Positions 3,922-10,865 of a DNA stretch of 64,000 nucleotides are shown piece by piece. The position numbers were made by a program, and so were the translations under genes. Numbering within the stretch: the stretch's first letter is position 1; each line of letters begins with the position of its first letter. The stretch comes from Streptomyces sp. SPB162. Lineage in GTDB: Bacteria; Actinomycetota; Actinomycetes; Streptomycetales; Streptomycetaceae. The stretch spans positions 372,001-436,000 of the forward strand of contig NZ_JAQFII010000001.1 in NCBI RefSeq assembly GCF_029504575.1, given 5' to 3'. Under the pieces are notes generated by a model that was not told where the DNA came from, made no database searches, and saw only the letters and a list, made by a program, of their open reading frames with translations.

Positions 3922-5007
3922 GTGTCCAAACAACGCATCATGGCGTTTCTCACCGCTCTGATCGTCGCGGTCGGACTGGCGGTCCTCGTACCGCTGGCGT
4001 CCACCGCTTCCGCCGCGCAGTGTACGACCGCGTGGAACTCCTCGACCGTGTACACCGGCGGGCTGTCGGCGTCCTACAACGGTCACAACTGGTCCGCGAA
4101 GTGGTGGACCCAGAACGAGACCCCCGGCACCGCGGCCGTCTGGGCCGACCAGGGCGCCTGCGGCAGCACGGGCGGTGGCACCGGTGGTACCGGCGGCACC
4201 GGATCGTGCGACTACCCCGCGTGGGTCGCGGGCCGGGCGTACGTCACCGGTGACATCGTCAAGTACACCGACGGCAAGGCGTACCAGGCCGAGCACGACA
4301 ATCCCGGCTACGACCCGGTCATCAGCACCTGGTACTGGGAGCCCTACACCTGCGGCGGCTCGTCGACCACGCCGCCGCCCAGCCAGGGCGGCTTCCCGGT
4401 CACCGAGGCGCAGTTCAACCAGATGTTCCCGAGCCGCAACTCGTTCTACTCCTACAGCGGCCTGACCGCGGCCCTGAGCGCCTACCCCGGATTCGCCAAC
4501 ACCGGGAGCGACACCGTCAAGCGCCAGGAAGCCGCCGCGTTCCTGGCCAACGTCAACCACGAGACCGGCGGACTCGTCTACATCGTCGAGCAGAACACCG
4601 CCAACTACCCGCACTACTGCGACGCGAGCCAGTCCTACGGCTGCCCCGCCGGCCAGTCCGCGTACTACGGACGCGGTCCGATCCAGCTGAGCTGGAACTT
4701 CAACTACAAGGCGGCCGGCGACGCGCTCGGCATCGACCTGCTGCACAACCCCTCCCTCGTGCAGACCGACTCGGCCGTCGCCTGGAAGACCGGCCTGTGG
4801 TACTGGAACACCCAGAGCGGACCGGGCACCATGACCCCGCACAACGCCATGGTCAACGGCGCCGGCTTCGGTGAGACCATCCGCAGCATCAACGGAAGCA
4901 TCGAGTGCAACGGCGGCAACCCCGCCCAGGTCCAGAGCCGGATCGACGCGTACCAGCGCTTCGTCCAGATCCTCGGAGTCCCGGCGGGCAACAACCTCGG
5001 CTGCTGA
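3922..5007 (+). CDS. Secreted family 19 chitinase with two chitin-binding modules
   Basis: The 361-residue product has a signal peptide (about 1-32, ending STASAA), a CBM5/12-like module with WSAKWW (33-81), a Gly-rich linker, a second CBM5/12-like module with STWYWEPYTCG (96-146), and a GH19 catalytic domain from about 158 to the end. GH19 hallmarks are NHETGG with general-acid Glu214, a second acid at Glu223, and YYGRGPIQLSWNFNY at 248-262. It cleaves beta-1,4 linkages of chitin outside the cell. Start GTG 3922 is fixed by the Shine-Dalgarno AGGAG at 3910-3914. It is monocistronic, with its own regulated promoter and a strong terminator. Confidence 0.95.
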   Translation: MSKQRIMAFLTALIVAVGLAVLVPLASTASAAQCTTAWNSSTVYTGGLSASYNGHNWSAKWWTQNETPGTAAVWADQGACGSTGGGTGGTGGTGSCDYPAWVAGRAYVTGDIVKYTDGKAYQAEHDNPGYDPVISTWYWEPYTCGGSSTTPPPSQGGFPVTEAQFNQMFPSRNSFYSYSGLTAALSAYPGFANTGSDTVKRQEAAAFLANVNHETGGLVYIVEQNTANYPHYCDASQSYGCPAGQSAYYGRGPIQLSWNFNYKAAGDALGIDLLHNPSLVQTDSAVAWKTGLWYWNTQSGPGTMTPHNAMVNGAGFGETIRSINGSIECNGGNPAQVQSRIDAYQRFVQILGVPAGNNLGC

Positions 5008-5528: not shown

Positions 5529-6167
5529 ATGGCTCAGATACAACTGCTGATCGCCGATGACCAGGTCGTGACCCGATCCGGTCTCATGGCGATGACCAGG
5601 GAAGCTCCAGGACTGGACGTGGTCGCGGTGGCCCATGACGAGGCCGGCGTCCTGACCGCGGTGGACCGCGCGGATCCCGACGTCGTCCTGCTCAATCTCC
5701 GCACCCTGACAGCCGAGCGGTTCCGACATCTCGTCCGACTGGTCGGCGCGCATACCTCGATCATCGTCCTGTGGTGCCACGACTCCCTCGTCACGATCCA
5801 GGACGCCCTGCGGGCCAAGGTCGCCGGCTTCATGGACCTGGAGATCCTGCAGGAGGACTTCGCCAGCGTGATCTCCCTGGTCAATCGCGGCTGTGCGGTA
5901 TATCTCCTGCCCCATGAACGGCTCTCCGATATCAGCACCGAATATCCGGTGTCGTCCGACCCGGTCGCGATATCAAGTCTCACCTCGCGGGAGAACGACG
6001 TACTCCTGCTGCTGGCCGACGGGATGACGAACAAACAGATCGGCTCGACCCTGCATATCGCCGAGAACACCGTCAAGAAACACGTCCACCGCGCGATGAT
6101 CAAGTTATCGGCCTCCAACCGGGTGGAAGCGGCGCTGCTCGTCTCCCAACTCGGCCCCAAGCGGTGA
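5529..6167 (+). CDS. Orphan LuxR/NarL-type regulator with a degenerate receiver domain
   Basis: The 212-residue protein has a receiver-like domain (about 3-120) and a LuxR helix-turn-helix (about 148-208, with SRENDVLLLLADGMTNKQIG and ENTVKKHV). The acidic pair near the N-terminus is kept (Asp10-Asp11). The phosphoacceptor position reads VVLLNLR, giving Asn56 in place of Asp, and the conserved lysine near the end of the domain is missing (AGFMDLE). It therefore cannot be phosphorylated in the normal way and may respond to a ligand or act constitutively. ATG 5529 follows GGCAGGA by eight bases. No histidine kinase is adjacent. The target is unknown; the diiron gene set downstream is one candidate. 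Confidence 0.85.
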   Translation: MAQIQLLIADDQVVTRSGLMAMTREAPGLDVVAVAHDEAGVLTAVDRADPDVVLLNLRTLTAERFRHLVRLVGAHTSIIVLWCHDSLVTIQDALRAKVAGFMDLEILQEDFASVISLVNRGCAVYLLPHERLSDISTEYPVSSDPVAISSLTSRENDVLLLLADGMTNKQIGSTLHIAENTVKKHVHRAMIKLSASNRVEAALLVSQLGPKR

Positions 6168-6195: not shown

Positions 6196-6810
6196 TCACT
6201 TCAGGAGGGACGTGAGCAGCACGTCGTACGTCCGTCCCGTGCCAGTGACCGCCGCGACGCCCTTCATGGCGACCTCGTGCCCGAGGTAGGTCAGCGCGCC
6301 CAGCAGCGCGAGCGCGAGTTGCCGGGACGTCTCGGCGCCGTCGAGGCCGGGGTCACCGGAGTTGCCACCGGGTCCGGTGGTGGGACGGGCCCGCTCCACC
6401 AGTCGGATCGTCGCCGACAGCCACCACTGCTCGTCGATCCGTCGCCATCGCTCGTACCCGAGCACCGCCGGCGCGTCGAGCAGCAGCAGCCGGGCCACGG
6501 CAGGATCGGCGCACAGGGCGAGGAACTCCTGCCCGGAGCGGAGCAGCCGCGCGACGGGTTCGTCCTCGACATCGAGTGCCTGGATCCGTAGCGCCAGTTC
6601 ACGGTGGATGTCGTGCACGACATCCACCAACAGCGCCTCCTTGCCCGCCCAGTGGTGGTACAGCGCACCGGTCGTCACCCCGGAACTCCTCGCGATCTCC
6701 GCGATGGTCGTCGCGGAGTAACCGCGCTCGCTGAACAACTGCCGGGCTTGACGGGTCAGTTGGGCGCGGGTGCGCTGGGTTCGCTCCACGTTGGATCTGC
6801 GCGTCGACAT
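6196..6810 (-). CDS. TetR-family regulator
   Basis: A 204-residue repressor-type protein with a TetR helix-turn-helix at about residues 10-56 (FSERGYSATTIAEIARSSGV followed by TGALYHHWAGKEAL) and a helical ligand domain. The start ATG at 6810 lies only 24 bases from the divergent thioesterase start, so both genes probably have leaderless or near-leaderless transcripts from one small regulatory region. It most likely controls the neighbouring thioesterase and perhaps the diiron genes beyond; that is inference from position. Confidence 0.85.
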   Translation of the reverse strand: MSTRRSNVERTQRTRAQLTRQARQLFSERGYSATTIAEIARSSGVTTGALYHHWAGKEALLVDVVHDIHRELALRIQALDVEDEPVARLLRSGQEFLALCADPAVARLLLLDAPAVLGYERWRRIDEQWWLSATIRLVERARPTTGPGGNSGDPGLDGAETSRQLALALLGALTYLGHEVAMKGVAAVTGTGRTYDVLLTSLLK

Positions 6811-6834
6811 ACCGAACGATGCTATGTTATTGCG

Positions 6835-7248
6835 ATGATGGATGTCGATGCAGCTCAGGCCGTTCTCGATGACAGCCCCTTCGGGCCCTGGTGGGGATTC
6901 CGCGTGAAAGCCGTCGGCAAGGGACAGGCCAAGGTCTCGCTGCCGCAGCGCCCGGAACTCTTCCGCCCGGGTGGTGTCCTGCAGGGCGGCTGCGCGATGA
7001 CGCTCGCCGACGTCGCCTGCTGGATCGCGATCATGTCGCTGTTCGGCGAGGACGATCCTTCCGTCACCCAGCAGATGACGACGAGTTTCCTCGGCCCGGC
7101 GCGCACCGATCTGGTCTGCGAGGCGACGATCGTCCGGCCCGGCCGCCTGATCGTCTACGGCACCGCCGCCACGACCGACACCGCCGGCAAGCTCGTCTCC
7201 CACCACACCCTGACCTACATCCGGCCACCGGAGCGCAACGCGGTCTGA
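6835..7248 (+). CDS. PaaI-type hotdog-fold thioesterase
   Basis: The 137-residue product matches the PaaI/4HBT hotdog thioesterases: PFGPWWGFRV at the N-terminus, the central helix signature RPGGVLQGGCAMTLADVA with Asp59, and the beta strand SVTQQMTTSFLGPA. These enzymes hydrolyse acyl-CoA thioesters, often of aromatic acids. Two in-frame ATGs (6835, 6838) are possible. It is divergent from a TetR regulator and precedes the PaaA-like diiron gene by about 195 bases, so a role in the same pathway is likely but not shown. Confidence 0.8.
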   Translation: MMDVDAAQAVLDDSPFGPWWGFRVKAVGKGQAKVSLPQRPELFRPGGVLQGGCAMTLADVACWIAIMSLFGEDDPSVTQQMTTSFLGPARTDLVCEATIVRPGRLIVYGTAATTDTAGKLVSHHTLTYIRPPERNAV

Positions 7249-7442
7249 GACCTCCAGCCGTCCCCCGGTCGCAGCCGGCACCGCCGGCTCGGAAGGTACT
7301 CCGCGAGCACCCCCTGGATACCCCGTAAGTGCCACCGGCATACTCCCTTCGTTCCCCGCCGATAGGGCCCCATCGTGGCCTACCGACGCCGTGAACCCCC
7401 CGGATAGGCTGAATTTCATCAGCTACCCGGAGGAGAATTCGT

Positions 7443-8180
7443 ATGGCGACCGTCTTTTCGGAGACCGTGGATTTGGAAAGCGTCGGGGAACTTCCGGAAG
7501 AATACCGGGAGGTGCTGACGCATCAGATGCTCGCCAACGGTGAAGGCGAGTTGAGCGCGGGCGACACCTACGTCGACTCGTTCTATCCGCTGGCTCCCAA
7601 TGCCGACGAGCGCTATATGTGCCTCAAGTTCGGCATGGAAGAGGTGGACCACTTCCGGCGCTTCGCCAAGCTGCTCACCCCACTCGGCGTCGACACGTCG
7701 CACATGGTGAATCAGGCGGTCGCGGACCGGCGTTACTTCCCGGCCGAGAGCATGACCACGCAATTCACCGTCTGGGAGGAGCGCGCCGCGTTCAGCTTCC
7801 TGTGCGAGCTCGAAGGGCATTTCCAGATCAAGGAGATGACCACGAGCACCTACGGGCCGCTGCGGGTCGAGGCCGACGCGATCCTCAAGGAAGAGGCCCG
7901 GCACTTCGGTTACGGCAAGCGCCTGATGCAGGAGTCCTACGACGCCGGCGCGCCGTCGCGGGACCGGGCCCAGAAGGCGCTCGACAAGTTCTATCCGATG
8001 GCGCTGGACATGTTCGGCCGGCCCGACTCCCGCCGCGGGCGGCTCGCCGTCCGGTGGGGCCTGCGCAAGAACGACAACGGTGAGTTGCGCGAGCTGTACA
8101 AGGCCGCGATCGCCGAGCACATCGAGAAGATCGGGTTCTCCGTCCCCAAGGTCGACCCCTCGCAGCTGCAGTTCGCCTGA
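7443..8180 (+). CDS. PaaA/PaaC-like ferritin-fold diiron protein
   Basis: A 245-residue, largely helical protein with two E-x2-H iron motifs, EVDH (Glu67, His70) and EARH (Glu151, His154), plus candidate glutamates in the GEGEL helix (33-37) and in CELEGH (122-124). This is the pattern of the PaaA/PaaC branch of ferritin-like oxygenases, which includes the phenylacetyl-CoA epoxidase subunits. It stands alone here: no PaaB/PaaD/PaaE partners are present. GGAGGAG lies seven bases before ATG 7443. It would activate oxygen on an unknown substrate, with an unknown electron donor. It starts a plus-strand run of four enzyme genes ending at 10865. Confidence 0.75.
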   Translation: MATVFSETVDLESVGELPEEYREVLTHQMLANGEGELSAGDTYVDSFYPLAPNADERYMCLKFGMEEVDHFRRFAKLLTPLGVDTSHMVNQAVADRRYFPAESMTTQFTVWEERAAFSFLCELEGHFQIKEMTTSTYGPLRVEADAILKEEARHFGYGKRLMQESYDAGAPSRDRAQKALDKFYPMALDMFGRPDSRRGRLAVRWGLRKNDNGELRELYKAAIAEHIEKIGFSVPKVDPSQLQFA

Positions 8181-8268
8181 GCGCCGCGCCGCCGGCCCGC
8201 CCTGCCGGCCCGCCCTCCCCGCCCGATCCACCTCCCCGGAACCATCCACCTCACCGGAGTAGGAATCG

Positions 8269-9063
8269 ATGACGACGACCGACATGCTGATCGACCGGAT
8301 CAAGACGCACCGCGTCTTCGACCACCCGCTCTACGAGCACTGGGCCGCGGCGCCCCCGTCCGCCGAGGTCTCGGGCGCCCTCTTCCACCAGGTGCAGTCG
8401 TTCTGTGCCTCCACCCGCCCCGGTGGCGACTTCCCCACCGCCCTGCGCGGTCTGGGCTGGGAGGAGCAGGCGGTCCTCATCGAGGAGATCGTCGACAGCG
8501 AGTCCGGGCACGGCCCGGAGCTGGCGACGATGGCGGGCCACATCGTCAACCGCACCGGCGCCCAGGTCTTCGACGACGTCTATGACACCGAGCGCGTCGA
8601 GGAATGGCTCAAGAGCTCGTCGGACCGGCTGCTGGCCGGACTGCCGGGGTACGACCTCGCGACGGGCCTGACGCCCCAGGCGGCGGCCGCCATCGAGGTG
8701 TTCCGGCGCCGGTTCTCCTCCGACGCGGACACCACCGTCCGCAACCTCGGTACGGCGCTCGCGCTGGAGATCATCTCCAATCAGTCCCTGATCCCGGGCG
8801 AGAAGCGCGCGCTCATCGACTCCGGTCACTACAAGGCCGACATCGACGAGCCGGAGATGCACTACATGGCGGAGCACTGGGGTGACGCCGGTGCCGAGCA
8901 GCAGCACGAGGCGAACGTGATCCTGGCCGTCTCCTCCGTCATGGACTCCTCGAACAGCGCGCGGATCGAGGAGGGCGTGGAGGACTTCCTCGAGTCCCTG
9001 TGCGCGCTGTGGGACGTCCTGGACGCGGCGCTGCTCGCGTCCGGGCTGCGACCGGCCGCATAA
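8269..9063 (+). CDS. Iron-containing redox enzyme of the haem-oxygenase-like diiron oxidase type
   Basis: This 264-residue helical protein has the features of the TenA/PqqC-fold diiron oxidases (UndA, BesC, SznF relatives): an E-x2-H step at Glu78/His81 in a helix reading DSESGHGPE, a mid-protein glutamate (Glu167 in ALALEIISNQ), and a metal-ligand-rich helix from His198 to His213 (HYMAEHWGD then AGAEQQH). The last motif differs by register from the usual H-x3-D-x2-H, so metal occupancy should be tested. Known members fragment, desaturate or N-oxygenate amino or fatty acids. It lies 88 bases after the PaaA-like gene and before an amino acid dehydrogenase, which fits an amino-acid-derived substrate. 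Confidence 0.7.
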   Translation: MTTTDMLIDRIKTHRVFDHPLYEHWAAAPPSAEVSGALFHQVQSFCASTRPGGDFPTALRGLGWEEQAVLIEEIVDSESGHGPELATMAGHIVNRTGAQVFDDVYDTERVEEWLKSSSDRLLAGLPGYDLATGLTPQAAAAIEVFRRRFSSDADTTVRNLGTALALEIISNQSLIPGEKRALIDSGHYKADIDEPEMHYMAEHWGDAGAEQQHEANVILAVSSVMDSSNSARIEEGVEDFLESLCALWDVLDAALLASGLRPAA

Positions 9064-9145
9064 CTCTCTGCCGGACGGGCCGGCGGTTCACGCCCGCGGG
9101 CGGAGCCGCCGGCCCGGCTGTCACCGACGGACCCAGGGGTGGACC

Positions 9146-10222
9146 ATGAGCGTGTTCAAGCAGATGGACGGCCACGAACAGGTGCTGCTCAGTTCGGGCC
9201 CCGGTGGGCTCCGCTGCGTCATCGCCATCCATTCGACCTTGCTGGGCCCCGCGCTCGGCGGCGTCCGCTTCCTTCCGTACCGCGACGACGACCAGGCCAT
9301 CGACGACGCGTTGCGCCTCTCGCGCGCGATGACGTACAAGGCCGCCTGCGCGGGTCTCGACATCGGCGGCGGAAAGGCCGTCATCTTCGGAAGCCCCGGC
9401 GTCGAGAAGTCCGAGACGCTGCTCCGCGCGTTCGGGCAGGCGGTCGAGAGTCTGTCCGGGCGCTTCATCGCCGCCTGCGACATGGGCATCACCACCGCCG
9501 ACCTGCGGGTGATGCGCAAGGAGTCGCAGTGGATCCGCGGCCTGGACGTCGAGGAGGGCGGCTCGGGTGAGTCGGGTGCCATGACCGCCTACGGGGTGAG
9601 CCTCGGCATCCGGGCGTGCCTGGAGTTCCTCTACGGCAGCGACAGCCTGGACGGCCGCCACATCGCCCTCGACGGGGTCGGCAAGGTGGGTGCCCGGCTG
9701 GCGGCCCATCTGGCCGACGCCGGCGCGCAACTGACGGTGGCCGACATCGACCAGGACAAGGCCGAGCAGGTGGCCGACGCGTGCGGGGCGGAGGTCGTCA
9801 GCCGGGAGCAGCTCTACCTGCTCGACGTGGACGTGCTGAGCCCGAACGCGGTCGGCAACGTCATCGATACCGGTCTGGTGGACAAGCTCCGCTGCCGGAT
9901 CGTCGCGGGCGGGGCCAACAACCAGCTCACCGCACCGGCGGTCGCCGACCGGCTGGCGGCCCGCGGCATCCTGTACGCACCGGACTTCGTCATCAACGCG
10001 CTCGGCCTGATCCAGGTGGTCGACGAACTGCACCCGGCGGGGCACGACATGGCCCGGGTCAGGCAGCGCGCGCAACTGATCCCGGAGCGGCTCGTCGAGA
10101 TCTTCACCCGGGCGAAGAACCTGAACATCAGCACGGCCGCCGCCGCGACCGGCATGGCACGGGACCGCCTCGCGGCGGTGCGGGGGGTGCGGTCGTTCTG
10201 GCTGCCGCCGCGGTGCACGTGA
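9146..10222 (+). CDS. Leu/Val/Phe-type amino acid dehydrogenase
   Basis: The 358-residue protein belongs to the Glu/Leu/Phe/Val dehydrogenase superfamily. Substrate and catalytic lysines sit in MTYKAA (Lys65) and GGGKAV (Lys77), the catalytic aspartate in ACDMG (Asp112), and an NAD-binding Rossmann motif GVGKVG at 177-182. The enzymes reversibly deaminate branched-chain or aromatic amino acids to 2-oxo acids. AGGGGTGG ends a few bases before ATG 9146. It is probably co-transcribed with the diiron genes upstream. Streptomyces normally has a catabolic valine dehydrogenase elsewhere; this copy's context argues for a pathway-specific role, which is inference. Confidence 0.85.
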   Translation: MSVFKQMDGHEQVLLSSGPGGLRCVIAIHSTLLGPALGGVRFLPYRDDDQAIDDALRLSRAMTYKAACAGLDIGGGKAVIFGSPGVEKSETLLRAFGQAVESLSGRFIAACDMGITTADLRVMRKESQWIRGLDVEEGGSGESGAMTAYGVSLGIRACLEFLYGSDSLDGRHIALDGVGKVGARLAAHLADAGAQLTVADIDQDKAEQVADACGAEVVSREQLYLLDVDVLSPNAVGNVIDTGLVDKLRCRIVAGGANNQLTAPAVADRLAARGILYAPDFVINALGLIQVVDELHPAGHDMARVRQRAQLIPERLVEIFTRAKNLNISTAAAATGMARDRLAAVRGVRSFWLPPRCT

Positions 10223-10256
10223 GCCGGCCGCACGGCGCGAGGGGGAGCGTCCGCTG

Positions 10257-10865
10257 ATGGAACTGGAAGCCGCCGTCCGCACCCGCCGCAGCGAGCACCG
10301 GCTGCTCGATCCCGCCCCGAGCGACGAGGAGTTCACCGACCTGCTCGGCTGGGCGGCGACCGCGCCCGACCACGGCCATCTGCGTCCCTGGCGGTGGATC
10401 CTCGTGCGCGGCGAGAGCCGGGCGGCGCTGGGCGCGTCCTTCGCGTCCGGCGCCACCGACGCGGAGACCGTCCGGCGCGAGACGCGGAAACCGCTGCGCG
10501 CCCCGCTCCTCGCGACCCTGGTCTTCGTGCCGCGACGCAGTCACCGGGTGCCGCACTGGGAGCAGCTCGCCGCGAGCGGCGCCATGGTCAACTCCCTGAT
10601 GCTCCTGCTGCACGACCGCGGGTTCGGCAGCATCTGGCGCACCGGCTCGTCCGTCGACTCCGTCGGGACCCGGACGCTGCTGGGCCTGGCCCCGCACGAA
10701 GGACTCATCGGCTGGCTGTACGTCGGCACCCCCGACCCCACCCGGCGGTCGGTCCCGCGCTCCCCGGTACCGGTCGCCGACCGGGTCTCCCGGCTCGCTC
10801 CCCCGCCCTGCCCCGCGTCCGCCGGCCCAGGGGACGGACGGGCGGTCACTACGAGCACGCGCTGA
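10257..10865 (+). CDS. Nitroreductase-family FMN enzyme
   Basis: A 202-residue member of the YdjA-like nitroreductases: RRSEHRL near the N-terminus contacts FMN phosphate, DHGHLRPWRWI is the conserved loop-strand, and AMVNSLMLLLHDRGFGSIWRTG is the dimer-interface helix and FMN-binding stretch. The C-terminal 25 residues are a Pro/Ala-rich tail not typical of the core. GAGGGGGAG precedes ATG 10257. It lies 34 bases after the dehydrogenase gene and ends the apparent operon, overlapping the tail of the convergent ArsR remnant by 17 bases. It could reduce nitro, nitroso or enoyl groups. Confidence 0.85.
   Translation: MELEAAVRTRRSEHRLLDPAPSDEEFTDLLGWAATAPDHGHLRPWRWILVRGESRAALGASFASGATDAETVRRETRKPLRAPLLATLVFVPRRSHRVPHWEQLAASGAMVNSLMLLLHDRGFGSIWRTGSSVDSVGTRTLLGLAPHEGLIGWLYVGTPDPTRRSVPRSPVPVADRVSRLAPPPCPASAGPGDGRAVTTSTR

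Follow-up and report, generated by a model that had tools for sequence, protein, structure and literature searches.

A conserved Streptomyces gene set with two predicted diiron scaffolds that may oxidise a branched-chain or similar amino acid

In this study, a seven-gene set was investigated in the window, by which we mean the whole 64 kb stretch C1:372001-436000 of the high-G+C, 7.2 Mb genome of Streptomyces sp. SPB162. On the + strand, five co-directional genes (6835-10865) encode a hotdog thioesterase, a lone PaaA-like ferritin-fold protein, a predicted haem-oxygenase-like diiron oxidase/oxygenase (HDO), a valine/leucine-dehydrogenase-like enzyme and a flavin mononucleotide (FMN)-type nitroreductase, with a divergent TetR gene alongside; a LuxR-type regulator gene was also counted into the set, as it recurs with it. 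The five genes beside a TetR gene had been described in a first-pass annotation, and domain matches together with the structural model of the HDO confirm them; likewise, its two unrelated diiron scaffolds are recovered as PF05138 and a haem-oxygenase-like fold, both retaining candidate ligands. We observed the gene content, its conservation, the predicted folds, the conserved ligand residues, a palindrome and an Asp-to-Asn change in one regulator. The likeliest function of the set is to oxidise a metabolite derived from an amino acid. In the specific form of this reading, to which we give a probability of roughly 0.38, the HDO would carry out the oxidation on a free amino acid of the branched-chain or a similar aliphatic type, and the PaaA-like protein and thioesterase would act on a derived acyl thioester.

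The co-occurrence by which the annotation proposed to check the set was found across genomes: a contig scan with the HDO and a search with the PaaA-like protein disclosed seven distinct Streptomyces-type loci including the window. Five came from the HDO contig scan at 88-95% identity, all in records named Streptomyces, and L045 was added by the PaaA-like search; L009 and L010/L019 were left out of the count, having the same coordinates as L003 and L004. The regulator, TetR, thioesterase, PaaA-like, HDO and dehydrogenase genes occur in identical order in all seven, the nitroreductase in six, and L004 and L006 carry an extra open reading frame (ORF) between the LuxR-type gene and tetR. When flanking genes were compared within the available stretches (>45% identity over half the length), common ones were found within the window and L003, within L004, L005 and L006, and within L007 and L045, and none across these groups. 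These three unrelated chromosomal settings indicate that the set has changed place. The PaaA-like protein shows the highest identity to the window across loci (93-97%), and the thioesterase copies are 90-95% identical among loci. Pairwise ratios of nonsynonymous to synonymous substitution rates (dN/dS) against the window were 0.06-0.10 for the PaaA-like gene, 0.06-0.15 for the thioesterase, 0.14-0.22 for the HDO, 0.09-0.24 for the dehydrogenase, 0.14-0.33 for the LuxR-type gene and 0.21-0.35 for TetR. With seven genomes, three kinds of flanks and purifying selection, the set is not a product of chance.

The set is also rare. Matches to the HDO were noticed in 7 of 394 family genomes (three near copies, one of them the window, three relatives at 58-59% identity and one weak match), in 2 of 35 genus genomes and in 4 of 377 genomes of a second Streptomyces sample, three of which had already been found otherwise. 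The match in G128 (E 1e-4) was discarded as probably false, its translation looking like an unrelated protein. The phylum sample gave a single match in 396 genomes (E 1e-20), namely the window's own genome, where 6 of 29 candidates were scored, as were 6 in the listed rows with more. Viral contigs, searched with the HDO and PaaA-like families, gave no relative, and plasmids gave no HDO match; the plasmid relatives of the PaaA-like protein were all below 60% identity, the best listed at 39%.

Beyond these loci, the protein search returned 317 HDO relatives, of which the best 120 were examined, and 46 PaaA-like relatives. Ten of the 46 PaaA-like rows have a longest contig equal in size to that of a row among these best 120 HDOs, eight of them of 3-15 kb. 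Contig sizes of 14,769, 4,956 and 7,915,503 bases recur in the HDO rows, the PaaA-like rows and the best 120 of 7927 dehydrogenase rows. This suggests that the PaaA-like, HDO and dehydrogenase trio occurs together at 60-74% identity in other lineages, equal size being no proof of one contig. By name, Chromobacterium also has a PaaA-like protein (P0142, P0146, P0151) and an HDO (P0115). Locus L007 comes from Streptomyces sp. NRRL B-1347, which harbors a second HDO (P0096, 57% identity) besides that of the set, so both HDO kinds can share one genome.

The HDO has no Pfam match up to E 0.1, the genome itself has no Haem_oxygenas_2 match at E 0.01, and the family is labelled hypothetical protein by NCBI in the listed rows. 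Its model (predicted local distance difference test, pLDDT, 93.3) displays the haem-oxygenase-like fold, and in a structural search its Z scores were 20-21.5 for HrmI, CADD and BesC, 18.8 for PolF and 17.9 for UndA, against 16.9 for the best TenA homologue and 16.7 for PqqC among proteins that are not HDOs. Loss of the iron ligands, which the annotation had named as a point that would count against it, was not seen in either diiron family: the six candidates of the HDO (E78, H81, E167, H203, E210, H213) are invariant in 120 of 120 HDO sequences. They follow the order E-H-X-H-D/E-H expected on the three core helices, H203 being assigned from order and spacing. E-H-X-H-E-H or its Asp form, with variable spacing, occurs in about 85% of the HDO groups analysed (PMC11363339). 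Among the structural neighbours, HrmI was crystallised with N6-hydroxy-Lys (structure entry title), 4-Cl-Lys is the substrate of BesC (PMC13108848) and Ile and Val are those of PolF (PMC12614342), and UndA turns fatty acids into 1-alkenes (PMC13108848).

Gene neighbourhoods of more distant HDOs were also compared. Those in L016, L017 and L068, which likewise point to an amino acid substrate, combine an HDO of 57-58% identity and an adjacent electron-transfer-flavoprotein (ETF)-like fusion with an adenylation (A) domain, a thioesterase and a chlorinating enzyme (TIGR01762, 426.7 bits in L016); L016 and L068 also carry a LuxR-type regulator, which is degenerate, and L017 and L068 a carrier-protein-like ORF judged by eye. 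These clusters are possibly a chlorinated amino acid pathway. In L015 (5564-10701), a run encoding hydroxypyruvate isomerase, tartronate-semialdehyde reductase and glyoxylate carboligase begins with a nitroreductase gene and an HDO gene that share a few bases. Of 11 loci examined, 10 place a flavoprotein gene in one run with the HDO gene: the nitroreductase lies two genes downstream of the HDO in six of the seven sets, in L015 a related nitroreductase is adjacent to it, and in L016, L017 and L068 the ETF-like fusion is. SznF, UndA and BesC need an external reductant beyond one turnover (PMC11363339), and MboA has its own dedicated redox partner (PMC13185094). On these grounds the nitroreductase is proposed to feed the HDO as a possible redox partner.

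The PaaA-like protein was modelled with a pLDDT of 95.0, and Foldseek aligned the model with PaaA at a template modelling (TM) score of 0.85 by query length and with SSO1313 at 0.85 by target length. Its Pfam score and Glu/His ligand set place it among the PF05138 ferritin-like diiron proteins. The candidate ligands E36, E67, H70, E151 and H154 are invariant in all 44 sequences, these being the window's protein and the 43 of the 46 matches longer than 230 residues, and position 122 is Glu or Asp. Phenylacetate catabolism was considered and rejected: the protein scores 53.5 bits with the PaaA equivalog TIGR02156, whose cut-off is 280; the positions of PaaA Lys68 and Glu49, mapped via the alignment with residue numbers from a structure entry title, are changed in 44 of 44 (F/I/T in column 63, V/I/L in column 44); none of PaaB, PaaC, PaaD and PaaE is among the seven genes; and the genome encodes a PaaA/PaaC-type pair at another site (C1:4038134-4040018).

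Again, more distant PaaA-like relatives (35-40% identity) form a second kind. Among 392 Streptomyces-type genomes, 18 matched, 2 with the window's set and 16 with other loci (L046-L061), all of which adjoin a radical S-adenosylmethionine (SAM) gene and show no HDO or dehydrogenase match within stretches of 12.6-19.9 kb. Hotdog genes often lie close to this second kind too: the window's thioesterase was matched in 6 of these 16 (E 1e-3). Judged by eye, carrier-protein, ketosynthase and reductase-like ORFs follow in L046, L049 and L055. Plasmids of Burkholderia stagnalis, Alteromonas and Tistrella also carry the radical SAM and PaaA-like pair, with a PaaI thioesterase annotated in L020 and a MaoC gene present in L021. 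On the B. stagnalis plasmid (L020:1076-10822), the pair is joined by PaaI thioesterase and cupin genes; close to them lie an A domain, an acyl-homoserine lactone (AHL) synthase and a chlorinating enzyme that shares 56% identity with the one in L016. The Tistrella plasmid (L022:3842-10001) has, besides the pair, hotdog-like and Rieske-oxygenase-like ORFs and a 371-aa ORF resembling AurF, all by eye, the latter having no NCBIfam match at E 1e-5.

The best solved relatives of the dehydrogenase are leucine dehydrogenases (6acf, 298 bits), and its lysine motifs MTYK and GGGK are kept in seven of seven copies; a paralogue with 46% identity exists in the genome. The label ScyB, a tryptophan dehydrogenase, was rejected, the score being 327.1 bits against an equivalog cut-off of 600. 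The thioesterase carries the motif LQGGCAMTLAD in seven of seven copies.

Concerning regulation, the 21-bp palindrome has one match in the window at up to three mismatches, with 0.00 expected, and each of the seven loci has it, a single base being variable; judged from the sequence, it is likely the TetR operator. A dyad between the thioesterase and PaaA-like genes varies in spacing among loci and is not claimed as an operator. The label of ScbR butyrolactone receptor was rejected for the TetR protein, which scores 66.1 bits against a cut-off of 150, in its N-terminal part only. In the LuxR-type protein, the receiver scores 25.2 bits with Response_reg, under the cut-off of 30.2, and the phospho-acceptor Asp is replaced by Asn (LLNL) in seven of seven orthologues, which sets it apart from canonical response regulators; the L016 regulator has Ser at this position. 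Lacking the usual phospho-acceptor, the protein likely answers to a ligand or partner.

Taken together, the valine/leucine-type dehydrogenase, the structural neighbours of the HDO and the halogenase clusters argue for a free aliphatic amino acid, and the PaaA-like protein and thioesterase argue for an acyl thioester, most simply a branched acyl-CoA derived from the keto acid. Substrate class, order of steps, electron donor and regulation could then be as follows. Valine or another free aliphatic amino acid would be oxidised by the HDO, to which the flavin nitroreductase, encoded two genes downstream, would probably return electrons. The dehydrogenase may convert the amino acid into its keto acid and back; the keto acid could pass through primary metabolism to a branched acyl-CoA. 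The PaaA-like diiron protein may act on this acyl-CoA, and release of the acid from the acyl thioester would fall to the hotdog thioesterase. From its site on the palindrome that covers the tetR start codon, TetR would keep the enzymes repressed until its ligand appears, and the LuxR-type regulator may respond to a ligand or partner rather than to phosphorylation. A bolder version, which we consider unlikely, sees in the set a new class of mobile cassette of Streptomyces. Its HDO and PaaA-like protein would act in series on one branched-chain amino acid, independently of any carrier protein or nonribosomal peptide synthetase (NRPS), and yield a new small molecule with a signalling or bioactive role, which the TetR and the non-phosphorylatable LuxR-type regulator of the cassette would sense.

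Several observations weigh against oxidation of a branched-chain amino acid and its acyl thioester. The known HDOs FlcD (16.4), HamA (16.1) and RohS (14.8) score no better against the model than the TenA homologue and PqqC, so the fold alone is insufficient for assigning a function. A very weak HMMER match (E 0.32) paired D/E206 of the HDO, and not H203, with a His of BesC, so H203 is a tentative ligand. The dehydrogenases read NALGLIQV in seven of seven copies, at a place where the other aligned relatives, including P0172, P0173 and P0178, which go with the putative trio of other lineages, have NAGG. We take this site to be the substrate pocket, so that the change of Gly to Leu may mean a substrate that is neither valine nor leucine. 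The thioesterase has Gln where PaaI-type enzymes, as we assume, usually have the His of HGG, and may therefore be no ordinary one; ten of the 16 second-kind PaaA-like loci gave no thioesterase match. The nitroreductase is absent from L005, where the best match has E 0.49, and is the least constrained enzyme, with dN/dS of 0.2-0.4 against the window. Moreover, none of a CoA ligase, a carrier protein and a transporter is in the set.

Other explanations were weighed against the same data. The HDO might hydroxylate an aliphatic amino group, as HrmI does on lysine, leading to an oxime, nitro or N-N product, with the nitroreductase working on the N-oxidised intermediate; this N-oxygenation is improbable in our judgment. 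We attach a similarly low likelihood to a catabolic or detoxification operon, in which an environmental compound, acyl or resembling an amino acid, would be sensed by TetR and broken down by the five enzymes. The divergent TetR with its likely operator, the absence of carrier protein, ligase and transporter from the set, and the L015 arrangement, where a nitroreductase-HDO pair heads a glyoxylate-carboligase run, all agree with such an operon; against it stand the patchy occurrence (7 of 394 family genomes, one probably false, and 1 of 396 in the phylum), the two regulators, one of which has no phospho-acceptor, and the HDO relatives in halogenase and A-domain clusters.

That the set makes a diffusible signal of the Pvf kind, sensed by TetR or the atypical regulator, is quite improbable. 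In its favour, two of the seven genes are regulators, and the cluster that makes the Pvf autoinducers includes a diiron N-oxygenase (PMC10194917). The best NCBIfam match of TetR is the ScbR receptor family, yet at 66 bits against 150 and in the N-terminal part it falls below the cut-off, while the C-terminal part matches TetR_C_41, and no butyrolactone synthase is among the seven genes. The least probable of these explanations is an UndA-like route, in which the PaaA-like protein would oxidise a branched acyl-CoA formed from the keto acid, the thioesterase would free the acid and the HDO would decarboxylate it to a short alkene or ketone. It assigns a step to four of the five enzymes, it agrees with the 1-alkene formation by UndA cited above (PMC13108848), and PaaA structures bind acyl-CoAs according to their entry titles.

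Table 1. Features of the gene set and its putative control regions, in window positions
Feature	Position	Strand	Basis
Orphan response regulator of LuxR type, opening the set	5529..6167	+	Pfam GerE 65.5 bits; 7/7 loci
TetR-family regulator, divergent from the enzymes	6196..6810	-	TetR_N 64.3 bits, TetR_C_41 34.6 bits; 7/7 loci
Likely TetR operator, inverted repeat ACATACC-GAACGAT-GCTATGT	6807..6827	.	Spans the tetR start codon and ends shortly ahead of the thioesterase gene
PaaI/4HBT-type hotdog thioesterase	6835..7248	+	PF03061 41.7 bits, TIGR00369 41.5 bits
Intergenic, conserved block before the PaaA-like start, possible promoter	7249..7442	.	Alignment of 7 loci
Lone PaaA-like ferritin-fold diiron protein (PaaA_PaaC)	7443..8180	+	PF05138 67.9 bits, cut-off 28.5
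Haem-oxygenase-like diiron oxidase/oxygenase (HDO), predicted	8269..9063	+	Fold of model; no Pfam match
Val/Leu-dehydrogenase-like amino acid dehydrogenase	9146..10222	+	ELFV domains 81.4 and 56.7 bits, both above cut-offs
FMN-type nitroreductase, YdjA kind	10257..10865	+	PF00881 77.6 bits; PRK10828 110 bits, under cut-off 183

Outside the set, window positions 3922-5007 encode a secreted-looking protein, by eye like a carbohydrate-binding chitinase, with a 97% match in L003 only among L003-L007.

The HDO superfamily is growing fast: of more than 10,000 sequences, about a dozen have a validated function (PMC13108848). This study links one HDO family of hypothetical proteins, through conserved synteny, with a lone PaaA-like diiron protein; we found no known reaction for the subfamily of the latter. 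With five enzymes and a sharply defined likely operator, the set is small enough to be expressed as a whole, making the substrate, the product and the division of labour between the two diiron scaffolds directly testable.

With reference to known systems, no described pathway with these families together was found in the literature searched, which largely excluded subscription papers, in agreement with the first-pass annotation. Its two diiron scaffolds are supported, with the qualification that two oxygenases of different kinds also occur together in another small pathway. The Ham system, which makes fragin and valdiazen from valine, has the HDO HamA and the N-oxygenase HamC, the latter being assigned the hydroxylation of valine (PMC11705231), and Pvf has a diiron N-oxygenase and an NRPS and makes signals (PMC10194917). 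Both are the nearest working analogues, being compact and having two oxygenases that act on valine, as proposed here, so two diiron enzymes in one pathway are not unique. The second diiron protein of our set is PaaA-like, however, and the set has a valine/leucine-dehydrogenase-like enzyme. The Ham and Pvf N-oxygenase is, we presume, of the AurF kind; neither an NRPS nor an AurF-like N-oxygenase is among the seven genes, the flanks not having been scanned for either.

PolF (polyoxin azetidine synthase), BesC and HrmI are 9-22% identical to the window's HDO in structural alignments, and the HDO differs from all three in having no haem-oxygenase-like Pfam match. To our knowledge, none of their pathways contains a PaaA-like protein. 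PaaA itself shares the ferritin fold and ligand pattern with the window's protein (TM 0.85) and differs from it in equivalog score, partner subunits and Lys68/Glu49. SSO1313 of Sulfolobus solfataricus (4mud) is the closest solved relative by sequence (E 6e-10), with 21-22% identity and an entry title that states no tested function. In mangotoxin biosynthesis, MboA and MboB are an HDO and its dedicated redox partner in one operon, MboB being a flavin/Fe2S2 reductase where our set has a candidate nitroreductase, and MboA acts on a tripeptide (PMC13185094). As an amino acid oxidation route, the set would likely be an undescribed pathway, set apart from known ones by having no carrier protein or NRPS among its seven genes, by its amino acid dehydrogenase and by the PaaA-like partner of its HDO.

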